DNA from: Syntrophomonadaceae bacterium
GTDB taxonomy: Bacteria > Bacillota > Syntrophomonadia > Syntrophomonadales > DTU052
DNA length: 33,511 bases
NCBI GenBank assembly: GCA_012728655.1
Contig: JAAYEQ010000039.1
Location: forward strand, 1 to 33,511
Direction of reading: 5' to 3'
The position numbers were made by a program, and so were the translations under genes. How positions within the stretch are numbered: the stretch's first letter is position 1; each line of letters begins with the position of its first letter. Below the pieces are notes generated by a model. It worked only from the letters and a program-made list of their open reading frames with translations, ran no database searches and was not told where the DNA came from. Shown piece after piece: positions 6,909 to 27,350 of this stretch.

Positions 6909-7072
6909 TCTCCTATCCCTCAATTCCATTATCGCGTATATTACGTTAACAGATTAACAAACCCCGGCCTCTTTCGTCAATTTTGCTGGAATCATTATCC
7001 TGCCGGTCCTGAGAGGTTATGAACCCCCTTCTGTCGAATTGTGTAAACATATTCAGGAGGGAGGGGAATAAG

Positions 7073-8157: not shown

Positions 8158-9780
8158 TTAGAAAAGATAGTCTGTAGTTAAGAATTTAGACTTGTGTTCG
8201 CGTGTGATTTCGGCAAACAGGTTTTTATTCAAATCCGTGTTTTTCGCCGCCACCATGGTGCGGATGGAAAAAACCCGCAGAGCGTCGGTTACCGATAAGG
8301 TCAGTTCAGCCGAGTCTTTGCGCCCGGTAAACGGGAAATTGTCAGGGCCTCGCTGGCACTGACAATTGATGTTAACCCGGCAGACCTGGTTGACAAGCAG
8401 GTCGATCAACTCCCCGATTTTATCGGGGTCCTTGCCAAAAACACTCGCCTGCTGGCCGTATTTTGATTCCATGATGTAACGGACCGGGGTTTCAATATCC
8501 GCAAAGGCAGCTATCGGAATTACCGGTCCGAACTGCTCCTCGTGGTAAACCCTCATTTCATTGTTAACGGGTGCAAGAATGGCGGGATAAAACAGGGTTT
8601 GGCAGGACGCGCCCCCGCCTTCATTGACCACCTGGGCTCCTTTTTGCAGCGCATCTTTAACCAGGCCGTCAAGATAGCTGATCCTGTCCATTTCGGGCAT
8701 GGGTGTTATTTCCACCTTGTCCTCCCAGGGCATCCCGATCTTCATATTGCTGACGGCGGTGACGAACCGCTCCATGAACTCATCCGCAATCTTATAATGA
8801 ACAAAGAACATTTTCAGGGCTGTACACCGTTGACCGTTAAAAGATAATGCTCCCAGCAGGCACTCTTTTACCGCCACGTCGAGGTCGGCATCGGCCAGAA
8901 TTATTGCCGGGTTTTTTGCTTCCAATCCCAGGCAGCTGCGAAGGCGGTGCGGCTGGGGGTGAAGCTTTTTCAGCATGCCAGCCACTTTGCTGCTGCCGAT
9001 AAAAGCCAGCACGCTAATCCCACCCGAAGTCATAAGTGGTTTGGCTACTACCTCCCCCTTGCCGTAGACGGTGTTCACTACCCCGGGCGGGAAACAGTCT
9101 CGGAAAATCTCCAGCAGGGGACGGTGAACCAAAACGCCGAACCGGGGCGGTTTAAAGATAACCGGATTGCCCATGATGAGAGCCGGAATCATGGTAGTAA
9201 AAGTCTCGTTCAGGGGGTAGTTGTAAGGGCCCATGCAAAGCACCACCCCCAGGGGTGCCCGTTTGATCTGACCGATAACACCTTCTTCACTGGTAAACCG
9301 GGATGACAACCGGTCGAGTTCTTTAACCGCTTCGATGGTGTCATTGATGTAGGCTATCGTGCGATCAAATTCCGTTTCCGAATGGTGGCGTGACTTTCCG
9401 ATCTCCCACATCAACAGCTTTACCATCTCCTGACGCTGCTTCTTCATCCGGCCGACAAACTCTTTAACGTGATCGATGCGATCGGCGACACTCATGGCAG
9501 GCCATTTCCCGCGGCCGTTGCTGTAAGCCTCAACCGCGGCCCGCAGCGCTTCCATGGCTTCTTTTTCGCCCATCAACGGATAGCTTCCAAGTCGTTTTTG
9601 TTCCAGGCCATTGCCTGTTCTTATAAAAATCGGAGACCGAACCTCCTGCATCGGCCCCTTCCAATGCCGGATTTCACCGTTAATTAGGTACTCGGTCTGA
9701 TGAATGTCCGCAAGCTGATACTCGGTAGGGATATCCGATTCCTTCGGGAAGATATCATGGAGCACACCGTTCATGTACAT
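8158..9780 (-). CDS. Aldehyde dehydrogenase, GapN-like (NADP-dependent non-phosphorylating glyceraldehyde-3-phosphate dehydrogenase)
   Basis: 540 residues from ATG 9780, six bases after GGGGA; ATG 9786 touches the site and is less likely. ALDH superfamily throughout: GPYNYPLNE (cofactor and substrate loop), NPVIFKPP, AFIGSSKVAG, the nucleophile in FNGQRCTALK, and EEQFGPVIPIA. FPFTGRKDSAELTLSVTDALRVFS near the C-terminus is the GapN-type ending. The segment that normally reads LELGGK, with the general-base Glu, reads LGLEAK, so that Glu is Gly and an acidic residue sits two positions later. Family knowledge gives glyceraldehyde-3-phosphate plus NADP to 3-phosphoglycerate; other aldehydes are possible. 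The gene diverges from the aldehyde ferredoxin oxidoreductase gene. Confidence 0.8.
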   Translation of the reverse strand: MYMNGVLHDIFPKESDIPTEYQLADIHQTEYLINGEIRHWKGPMQEVRSPIFIRTGNGLEQKRLGSYPLMGEKEAMEALRAAVEAYSNGRGKWPAMSVADRIDHVKEFVGRMKKQRQEMVKLLMWEIGKSRHHSETEFDRTIAYINDTIEAVKELDRLSSRFTSEEGVIGQIKRAPLGVVLCMGPYNYPLNETFTTMIPALIMGNPVIFKPPRFGVLVHRPLLEIFRDCFPPGVVNTVYGKGEVVAKPLMTSGGISVLAFIGSSKVAGMLKKLHPQPHRLRSCLGLEAKNPAIILADADLDVAVKECLLGALSFNGQRCTALKMFFVHYKIADEFMERFVTAVSNMKIGMPWEDKVEITPMPEMDRISYLDGLVKDALQKGAQVVNEGGGASCQTLFYPAILAPVNNEMRVYHEEQFGPVIPIAAFADIETPVRYIMESKYGQQASVFGKDPDKIGELIDLLVNQVCRVNINCQCQRGPDNFPFTGRKDSAELTLSVTDALRVFSIRTMVAAKNTDLNKNLFAEITREHKSKFLTTDYLF

Positions 9781-9962
9781 CACCATTCCCCACGCGTAAT
9801 GTCCGTTTTATCTTGCTCATAATGGATTCTTTTAATTCCGGCCGTGAAGAGCTTAAATAACAGGAAGGAGTTTCGGCAAAACTACTGTTCAACAACTTAA
9901 GGATTTAATCGATTGCCCAAAAAATCTCATTAAAACCGGTTGCGACGCCCGTGGTTATGAGC

Positions 9963-9990
9963 TTGATTTATTTTTCACAAGTGTTATAAT
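9963..9990 (+). promoter_or_regulatory. Strong sigma-A type promoter
   Basis: TTGATT at 9963-9968 and a perfect TATAAT at 9985-9990, spacer 16 bases. Predicted start near 9997. No gene follows until 10284; a terminator comes after about 110 bases. Confidence 0.7.
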
Positions 9991-9996
9991 ACCCTT

Positions 9997-10106
9997 AAAT
10001 CAATATGACCCCAGGCCGCAAGAGATAGAAAATGGCCTGGAGCCGGCTTTCACATCCCCTAAAGACCCATTAAAACCCACCTCCCCCAGTGTGGGTTTCT
10101 TTCTTT
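9997..10106 (+). ncRNA. Candidate small RNA or attenuated leader of the oxidoreductase gene
   Basis: A promoter at 9963-9990 and an intrinsic terminator at 10073-10106 delimit about 110 bases. It contains a 7-bp hairpin, CCAGGCC (10011-10017) with GGCCTGG (10034-10040) and a purine-rich 16-base loop, then the small palindrome AGCCGGCT (10041-10048). No credible reading frame with a start and ribosome site is present. It does not match the riboswitch or SRP, 6S or tRNA patterns I know. It could be a stand-alone small RNA, or a conditional terminator controlling the aldehyde ferredoxin oxidoreductase gene downstream. Confidence 0.45.
10073..10106 (+). terminator. Intrinsic terminator
   Basis: Perfect 8-bp stem AAACCCAC / GTGGGTTT, 10-base loop, then CTTTCTTT. 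It sits about 180 bases before the oxidoreductase start, so it either ends a small RNA or attenuates that gene. Confidence 0.8.
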
Positions 10107-10283
10107 CCGGCAAAGCTTGCCTTTGATGCTTCGCCGCATAATGAAAGCACCACTTTGACTACTCAATTCGTTTCATGCACCGCAAGGGTAATCCTCCTTT
10201 AGGCAGTTGCCCTATCACCCTGAATAATGGTCGGGGATTAGTCCCAAACTATGAGGAGATTTGGTATAAGGGCGGTATGGGTA

Positions 10284-12110
10284 ATGATAACTGAGGGTAC
10301 AATTAGGGTTTTGACTATCGATCTTGCCAGTAAATCCTGGGAGGTTAAGGAGAGGCCCGATCTTTTTCATTTCTTGGGCGGCGTGGGCATCGGGATAAGG
10401 TTGCTGGATGAAAATGTCCATTACGACCGGGATCCCCTGGCCAGCGAGCAGCCGGTGATTTTCTGCGTGGGCCCTCTTTCGTCAATATATCCGGTGGTTA
10501 CAAAAACCGTCTGCATGTTCCGCTCCCCGTTAACCGACGAACTGGGAGAAAGCTACGCCGGCGGCAGACTGGCTCTGGCCATGGTGTACTCCGGGTACGA
10601 CGCCATAGTCATCAAAGGGGATTCCCCCCGGCCGATATATTTAAGCATCAGCCCGGAACGGATCGAGTTCCGCAACGCCGAACCTCTGTGGGGGGTGGGA
10701 ACCGAGGAGACCGGGAGGTACCTGCGGGAGAAGGAACCGGGACACGGTTTCCGCTCCATAGTAAGAATCGGTCCGGCCGGTGAGAACCTGGTGCGCTTTG
10801 CCAACCTGAACGTGGATACCTTCCGTCATTTTGGCCGCCTGGGACCGGGAGCGGTATTCGGCAGCAAGAACCTTAAAGCGTTGGTGGTGTTCGGCGACCG
10901 GGATTACCCCATCCCCAAAGAGCAGCAGAAAGCCTACCGCAACCTCTATAAGAAGATCCACGACCGGGTAACCAAAACCGACGTGATGGAGAAATACCAT
11001 GACCTGGGAACCACGGTAAACATCCTTAAGCTTAATGCCATGAAAGGCCTTCCCACCCGCAACCTGCAATCGGCCACTTTCGAAAAGGCCCAGGAGATAT
11101 CGGGGGAAGCCTTTGCCGAAAAGAAGCTGATCCGCAAGCTGTCCTGCAGCAGTTGTCCGGTAGGATCGATCCATATCGCAGCCCATCGCCGCCAATTCAG
11201 TGACAAGGGCCATGAATACGAGACGTCACAACTGGCCTACGACCACGAACTGGTCTTTGCCCTGGGCAGCTTCCTGGGCACCGGCAGCCAGGAGGATTTC
11301 CTCACCCTGCTGGAAGCCGTGGAAGACCTGGGTTTCGATGTTATGAGCGCCGGCGTGCTGCTGGGCTGGCTTACGGAGGCCTTTGCCAACCGGCTGGTGG
11401 GGGAGGAGGAACTTGGTACCCGTTTGGAGTTCGGCTATACCGAGGGCTACCTGCATGTCCTGCGGAATATAGCCCGGCCGAAAAATGAACTCTACCGTCT
11501 GCTGGGCAAAGGGACCGAAGCCGCGGCGGAGCAGTTGGGTGGACTGGATTATGCCTGCACCCTGGGGCGTACGGAAATGACCGGTTATCATACCGGGTAC
11601 GGGGCGGTTCTGGGGCAAGCCGTCGGCGCCCGGCACTCGCACCTGGACAATGCCGGGTACTCGCTGGACCAGACCAAAAAGCACACCGACCCGGCTTCCT
11701 TCGTGAAAGCGATGTTCGAGGAAGAAATCAACCGCTGCATCACCAACTGCCTTATTATGTGCCTCTTCGCCCGTTCGGTCTACGATTATCCCACCATCGT
11801 CGAAGCTCTGAGCACCGTCGGGATTAAAAAAAGCGAAGAGGAACTAAAGGAGCTGGCACGGGAAATCTACCGCCACAAGATCATGGTCAAACAAAAGATG
11901 GGGTTCGATTTCCGCAAGCTGCGCTTCCCCAAGCGCTTCTTTGAGACGGAATGCCTCAACGGGATACTGAAGGAAGAAGTAATGCAGGAGATGCTGGACC
12001 TCTATATCCGGGAGGTGGAACAGCTTATGGCCGGTTGGCAGGGTCCTTGGGAAAAACCGGCACCCGTACAGACTGCCGGCGAAGGCCCCCGGCCTGTTCC
12101 CCCTTCGTAA
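10284..12110 (+). CDS. Aldehyde ferredoxin oxidoreductase (tungsten/molybdopterin), with a Cys-to-Ser cluster ligand
   Basis: 608 residues from ATG 10284, eight bases after AAGGGCGG; the frame also allows ATG 10251 without a site. The family is clear: N-terminal domain (about 1-200) with SPLTDELGESYAGG, the pterin-binding FGRLGPGAVFGSKNLKA at about 183-199, then the cluster and C-terminal domains. The enzyme oxidises aldehydes to acids and reduces ferredoxin. The [4Fe-4S] site normally reads CxxCxxxC plus a late Cys. Here it reads CSSCPVGS: Cys288 and Cys291 are present and residue 295 is Ser (TCG at 11166-11168), with the late Cys at about 493 (IMCLF). Serine can ligate iron, so the cluster may form with altered potential. 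The last 20 residues are a Pro-rich tail. No separate ferredoxin is adjacent. Confidence 0.92.
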   Translation: MITEGTIRVLTIDLASKSWEVKERPDLFHFLGGVGIGIRLLDENVHYDRDPLASEQPVIFCVGPLSSIYPVVTKTVCMFRSPLTDELGESYAGGRLALAMVYSGYDAIVIKGDSPRPIYLSISPERIEFRNAEPLWGVGTEETGRYLREKEPGHGFRSIVRIGPAGENLVRFANLNVDTFRHFGRLGPGAVFGSKNLKALVVFGDRDYPIPKEQQKAYRNLYKKIHDRVTKTDVMEKYHDLGTTVNILKLNAMKGLPTRNLQSATFEKAQEISGEAFAEKKLIRKLSCSSCPVGSIHIAAHRRQFSDKGHEYETSQLAYDHELVFALGSFLGTGSQEDFLTLLEAVEDLGFDVMSAGVLLGWLTEAFANRLVGEEELGTRLEFGYTEGYLHVLRNIARPKNELYRLLGKGTEAAAEQLGGLDYACTLGRTEMTGYHTGYGAVLGQAVGARHSHLDNAGYSLDQTKKHTDPASFVKAMFEEEINRCITNCLIMCLFARSVYDYPTIVEALSTVGIKKSEEELKELAREIYRHKIMVKQKMGFDFRKLRFPKRFFETECLNGILKEEVMQEMLDLYIREVEQLMAGWQGPWEKPAPVQTAGEGPRPVPPS

Positions 12111-24941: not shown

Positions 24942-27184
<2,243 letters not shown>

Positions 27185-27253: not shown

Positions 27254-27350
27254 AATTCTTTGATAGCAAGTAATTTGATTGAAAATAATTTAACAATAGC
27301 CGCGACCAAGCACTGAGCTGGGTTGACAGCGGAATCTTTGGCGGGCAGGG

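Follow-up and report, generated by a model that had tools for sequence, protein, structure and literature searches.

A predicted C-rich small RNA with a Rex-like promoter site in the Syntrophomonadaceae

We describe a predicted small RNA (sRNA) gene at positions 9963 to 10106 of contig JAAYEQ010000039.1 from a Syntrophomonadaceae bacterium (assembly GCA_012728655.1), within the 33,511-nucleotide stretch that was analysed as a whole and is called the window here. The window genome, labelled G000, is a draft of 2.3 Mb in 79 contigs. The unit lies ahead of a gene for aldehyde ferredoxin oxidoreductase (AOR), is conserved block-wise against diverged flanks and, on our best reading, probably encodes a C-rich, trans-acting sRNA that is repressed by Rex and works like RoxS of Bacillus. 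We class it as an sRNA family that is new but of a familiar type, and sequence gives no support for kinship with RoxS. Its parts, all on the plus strand, are as follows, where L002 and L003 are loci of the window's own genus and L021 is a locus in G004, a genome of another genus in the same family.

9997 to 10106, plus strand: predicted small RNA of about 110 nt, with covariance-model matches in four genomes and a start placed from the position of the −10 element.
9963 to 9990, plus strand: sigma-A-type promoter with −35 element TTGATT (9963–9968) and extended −10 element TGTTATAAT (9982–9990), recognized by a scan and by identity at 28 of 28 bases in two genus members and 24 of 28 in G004.
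9963 to 9980, plus strand: putative Rex-type operator-like site TTGATTTATTTTTCACAA, spanning the −35 hexamer and the greater part of the spacer, its function proposed from a matrix rank.
10011 to 10040, plus strand: 5′ hairpin of 7 bp with a 16-base purine-rich loop, from predicted pair probabilities.
10052 to 10067, plus strand: C-rich linker ACATCCCCTAAAGACC, candidate pairing region 1, predicted unpaired and identical at 16 of 16 bases in L002 and L003.
10073 to 10106, plus strand: intrinsic terminator whose loop CCCCC (10083–10087) is candidate pairing region 2, with pairing kept in L021 despite stem changes.

Conservation provides the main evidence for the unit. A blastn search with 9890–10260 against 60 relatives found it in two, both of the same genus, and the match in G001 spans 9963–10108, that is, the unit itself. 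A covariance model built from the window sequence and these two then recovered the fourth copy, in G004, at E 1.7e-6; a second model gave E 2.2e-24 for that copy, a value that is not independent because the model includes it. The model searches covered 63 genomes of the order, the window's own included, under the stricter filters that apply to a search of over 40 genomes. Convincing homologs occur in four of them, which are four of the five genomes in one family, and neither model found a convincing copy in the other 59. Outside the unit, identity falls sharply: the 58 bases upstream of the fully conserved promoter agree at only 22 and 24 positions in L002 and L003. Within it, the segment 10051–10068 is identical at 17 of 18 bases in both loci, and the 5′ hairpin at 27 of 30 in L002 and 13 of 30 in L003. 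In the more distant L021 the terminator has changed stem bases with pairing kept, and both its loop CCCCC and the CCCCT of the linker are retained. The terminator sequence CCTCCCCC is kept in all four homologs.

Weaker matches arose in 15 of the 63 genomes with the first model (E up to 1) and in 8 with the second (E up to 0.01). We rejected the 17 other model matches as chance: all 17 lack CCTCCCCC, 15 lack CTCCCCC, and their promoter motif agrees at 7–11 of 17 bases, whereas the four convincing homologs (G000, G001, G002 and contig C70 of G004) match it at all 17. An exact pattern scan of named genome contigs returned three records only, from Syntrophothermus sp. DTU052, Syntrophothermus sp. 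UBA1445 and a Syntrophomonadaceae metagenome-assembled genome, the window genome's own records possibly being excluded. Single shared elements occur in some weak matches, such as ACATCCCC in L026. A second weak match in G004 (L033 1501–1645, at 6983–7127 of contig C60) is an RNA-like unit with the C-rich terminator loop CTCCCCCCAG, and the gene about 600 bases past it has the ribosome-binding site GGGGGAGG in four genomes.

The promoter, hairpin and terminator listed in an earlier note on this DNA, made from the sequence alone, are all present. The promoter reads TTGATT-16-TATAAT with TG ahead of the −10 element and matches the consensus at 10 of 12 positions. The 5′ hairpin pairs CCAGGCC (10011–10017) with GGCCTGG (10034–10040) around its loop, with pair probabilities of 0.99–1.0 in the predicted folds of the window and L002. 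The corresponding pairing reaches only 0.19 in L003, where a different 5′ hairpin is favoured, and L021 has an 11-bp hairpin of other sequence with a loop of 4–6 bases. The terminator consists of AAACCCAC (10073–10080), a 10-base loop and GTGGGTTT (10091–10098), followed by the interrupted T tract CTTTCTTT; a pattern scan with a loop limit of 8 missed it. A second hairpin around the linker is not claimed, its outer two pairs having probabilities of 0.66–0.93 in the window and L002, 0.27 in L021 and 0.02 in L003. The same note's view that no credible coding frame exists also holds, as the four open reading frames of at least 20 codons over 9950–10120 are unconvincing and the longest has 37 codons. 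A leader peptide was rejected, since neither of the short ATG frames, located by eye at 10005 and at 10032, is conserved in L003 or L021, and in L003 a one-base gap falls within the second.

In predicted folds, the CCCC of the linker is unpaired with probabilities of 0.96–0.99 in the window and L002, 0.57–0.85 in L003 and 0.50–0.74 in L021. In CCTCCCCC the last five C are unpaired at 0.98–1.0 and the first two C are paired in all four folds; the first CC of CCUCCCCC being paired in this way, that 8-base motif was too long as a query. The predicted accessibility of the linker CCCCT and the terminator loop CCCCC suggests pairing with Shine-Dalgarno sequences, and on these modelled folds we consider pairing with mRNAs likely. 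The motif GGGGGAGG occurs at 28, 34, 48 and 29 start sites in G000, G002, G001 and G004, against 17, 22, 15 and 19 for reversed-pattern controls. The sites examined (26 of 28, 34 of 34, 21 of 48 with 13 by-eye picks, and 29 of 29, in the same order) led to 65 open frames.

The promoter also contains a candidate operator. Its spacer sequence TTCACAA, kept in all four homologs, is similar to the right half-site of the Rex operator TTGTGAANNNNTTCACAA, a consensus given in a passage of PMC6391272. The whole site TTGATTTATTTTTCACAA is identical at 18 of 18 bases in L002 and L003 and at 15 of 18 in L021, and a gene with the Rex N-terminal domain was present in all six genomes tested. Sites matching TTGTKAANNNNTTMACAA with one mismatch number 5, 3, 4, 6 and 7 in G000 to G004, against 1, 1, 1, 4 and 4 for the reversed pattern. 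Such Rex-type sites precede genes for an acetate transporter, formate-tetrahydrofolate (THF) ligase and an NfnA-like FAD/NAD-binding protein, all above the NCBIfam cut-off, and for 3-hydroxyacyl-CoA dehydrogenase and a formate/nitrite transporter, both just below it. The 25 sites comprise 18 distinct sequences, five of which, from redox genes and excluding the sRNA site, made up one matrix, while the other 13 entered only an 18-site matrix. The sRNA promoter site at 9963 ranked second of 33,494 window positions with the five-site matrix, whichever single training site was dropped, and third with the 18-site matrix. Equally good sites appeared in 2 of 100 shuffled windows, 4 of 200,000 permuted spacers and 9 of 2000 shuffles of 9787–10250. 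Taken with the points against it set out below, this evidence leaves Rex control of sRNA transcription evenly poised in our judgement.

Two further sites concern Rex apart from the sRNA. The sequence ACGTTAACAGATTAACAA at 6943–6960, where the ATPase and PdaA-type deacetylase genes diverge, has the second or third Rex-type score, and L002 and L003 retain most of it. Ahead of rex itself, AAGAAGGATTTCACAAA follows a −10-like sequence and is identical in all five family members (L085–L089); it scores low with the matrix (8.75–10.5) and is perhaps an unusual autoregulatory site of rex.

Under the proposed mechanism, the unit would be transcribed from its own promoter, and transcription would stop at the factor-independent terminator to give an RNA of about 110 nt. 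Rex, bound over the −35 element and spacer, would repress this transcription and be released at high NADH. The CCCCU of the linker and the CCCCC of the terminator loop would then most likely pair with G-rich Shine-Dalgarno regions in mRNAs from other loci, and this pairing would change the translation or stability of those mRNAs. That the sRNA acts at high NADH and blocks G-rich ribosome-binding sites is drawn from analogy with RoxS, which passages of PMC5419742 and PMC8216469 describe as a Rex-repressed sRNA that uses its C-rich regions for pairing. The likeness to RoxS and RsaE of Bacillus and Staphylococcus is that of a short Firmicutes sRNA with several C-rich regions, and several such regions of predicted accessibility (linker 0.50–0.99, loop 0.98–1.0) are found in all four sequences here. 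However, the window RNA matches no Rfam family and comes from another bacterial order, and the Rex site of roxS lies just downstream of the transcription start (in a passage of PMC5419742), whereas the Rex-like site here lies over the −35 element. FsrA and CsfG of Bacillus likewise have C-rich regions, with a predicted structure similar to that of RoxS (as stated in part of PMC8216469), and the absence of an Rfam match separates the window RNA from them as well. None of the 4227 models of Rfam 15 reached its gathering score in the window, so that no riboswitch was found, and the five matches over 9780–10300 at E up to 10 were all far under gathering, with neither RsaE nor RoxS among them.

It is a tentative proposal, which we hold with less than even confidence, that this is an NADH-responsive, Rex-repressed C-rich sRNA of syntrophic Clostridia unrelated to RoxS and RsaE, and hence a second, independent case of such Rex wiring. 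If so, a build-up of NADH, for example when a hydrogen-consuming partner fails, would lead to synthesis of the RNA and silencing of mRNAs with G-rich ribosome-binding sites. It would add to the syntrophs a new sRNA family lacking an Rfam 15 match, suggest that Rex wiring of C-rich sRNAs arose more than once in the Firmicutes, and tie the NADH level to post-transcriptional control in bacteria living near the thermodynamic limit. Among titles and abstract openings on sRNAs of Syntrophothermus and Syntrophomonas and on Rex-linked sRNAs in Clostridia, no description of it was found, nor any sRNA already described from this group of syntrophs.

The earlier note had left the choice between a small RNA and a metal- or cofactor-responsive leader of the AOR gene, and the kept promoter, linker and terminator, together with a 5′ hairpin kept in changed sequence across four genomes, speak for the former. 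Riboswitch leaders that sense metal cofactors ahead of oxidoreductase genes are a known kind, and the unit resembles them in its place ahead of an AFOR-family gene in one genus. As an attenuator, the terminator would open on a signal and transcription would run into AOR, whose start was taken as 10281, 175 bases past the T tract. AOR does lie about 90–175 bases downstream in the three genus members with the RNA, and in a scan of the window the stretch between terminator and AOR holds only one weak plus-strand promoter-like site (9/12, at 10200). Yet that stretch is identical at 29 of 134 positions in L003, better in L002 (85 of 134), and in G004 both the RNA and its promoter are retained while no AOR matches at E 1e-60. 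There the order is an ATPase, the deacetylase, the RNA, a GntR-type regulator and an ABC transporter ATPase (the ATPase, GntR and ABC labels being our assumption); contigs C34 and C21 carry the two AFOR-family genes of that genome, and C70 and C60 the RNA matches. The GntR gene is preceded by its own promoter-like TTGACA-17-TACTAT (by eye). Conversely, AOR relatives of 58–73% identity in G006, G008, G011 and G016, all of other families, have no RNA-model match, nor do the other AFOR-family genes in five family members; homologous leaders ahead of related oxidoreductase genes were thus sought with the RNA model and not found in those four genomes. We therefore rejected the leader, now improbable: since the RNA is kept in G004 where there is no AOR ortholog, and the next gene has a promoter-like site of its own, the unit is, on comparative grounds, a small-RNA gene independent of AOR.

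Several results weigh against a Rex-repressed sRNA that pairs with mRNAs. The AOR leader offered the RNA no better pairing than shuffled leaders did: 62, 161 and 84 of 200 shuffles were as good for the window, L002 and L003, and for the GntR leader of L021 the figure was 121 of 200. The motif GGGGGAGG is found in all four genomes for two gene families, a result uncontrolled for ordinary ribosome-binding-site conservation and not counted as support. Neither the RNA nor the deacetylase gave a match in G003, a 90% complete genome of the window's own genus. As for Rex, the five matrix sites were hand-picked by gene after the idea had arisen from the sRNA promoter, and the window's best site (27279–27296, about 95 bases ahead of the minus-strand NfnA-like gene 26348–27184) is an ortholog of a training site. 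It is conceivable, if on balance unlikely, that the RNA is a C-rich trans-acting sRNA whose conserved promoter spacer has nothing to do with Rex, the promoter being constitutive and strong or under a different regulator. By the published consensus alone the site scores an ordinary 10 of 14, a level that 8 of 33,494 window positions attain; only one half-site, TTCACAA, is full and the other is degenerate, the left half coinciding with the −35 hexamer and perhaps kept for that alone. Nor was a regulon of like promoters found, the promoter motif with up to three mismatches occurring 9, 6, 6, 5 and 7 times in G000 to G004 against 4, 9, 10, 5 and 13 for the reversed motif. TTCACAA, however, is no promoter element and is still kept in all four homologs, and the matrix rank of the site is 2–3. 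Binding of a protein rather than mRNAs by the hairpin loop or C-rich stretches seems very improbable to us: AGATAGA is common to the loop region of the window, L002 and L003, but is lost in L021 while the C-rich parts stay. Least credible is a chance assembly or decayed, functionless element. The window fold is modest (z −1.38, with 20 of 200 shuffles as good; −1.6 in a repeat, 30 of 500), and the 10-kb promoter scan gave 16 sites of this quality where shuffles predict 7.2, which means that the promoter match alone is no proof. Among the homologs, z was −7.6 in G004 (0 of 500 shuffles), −1.8 in L002 (24 of 500) and −2.1 in L003 (15 of 500). The promoter match and fold of the window unit are thus unremarkable alone, and it is conservation in four genomes against diverged flanks that lifts the unit above chance.

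The gene neighbourhood is shared in part. The order is ATPase, PdaA-type deacetylase, RNA and AOR in L002, and deacetylase, RNA and AOR in L003; in the window a minus-strand aldehyde dehydrogenase gene (8158–9786), not there in L002, L003 or L021, stands between deacetylase and RNA. The window's deacetylase copy scores above the cut-off of TIGR02884 (PdaA-type, sporulation). The deacetylase gene occurs in 36 of 63 genomes at E 1e-40, and the RNA model matches three of 30 deacetylase loci (L036, L037 and L038 only), with no RNA match near the 26 loci of other families; the window's own locus, L035, ends ahead of the RNA, and contig ends truncate some of the others. In G008 and G016 the AOR relative directly follows a small gene that reads by eye like an iron-sulfur protein. 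Just ahead of AOR in the window, 10241–10280 is identical at 35 of 40 bases in L002 and 32 of 40 in L003, although L003 conserves the sequence ahead of it poorly; it is open in the AOR frame in the window and L002, whereas L003 has a stop there.
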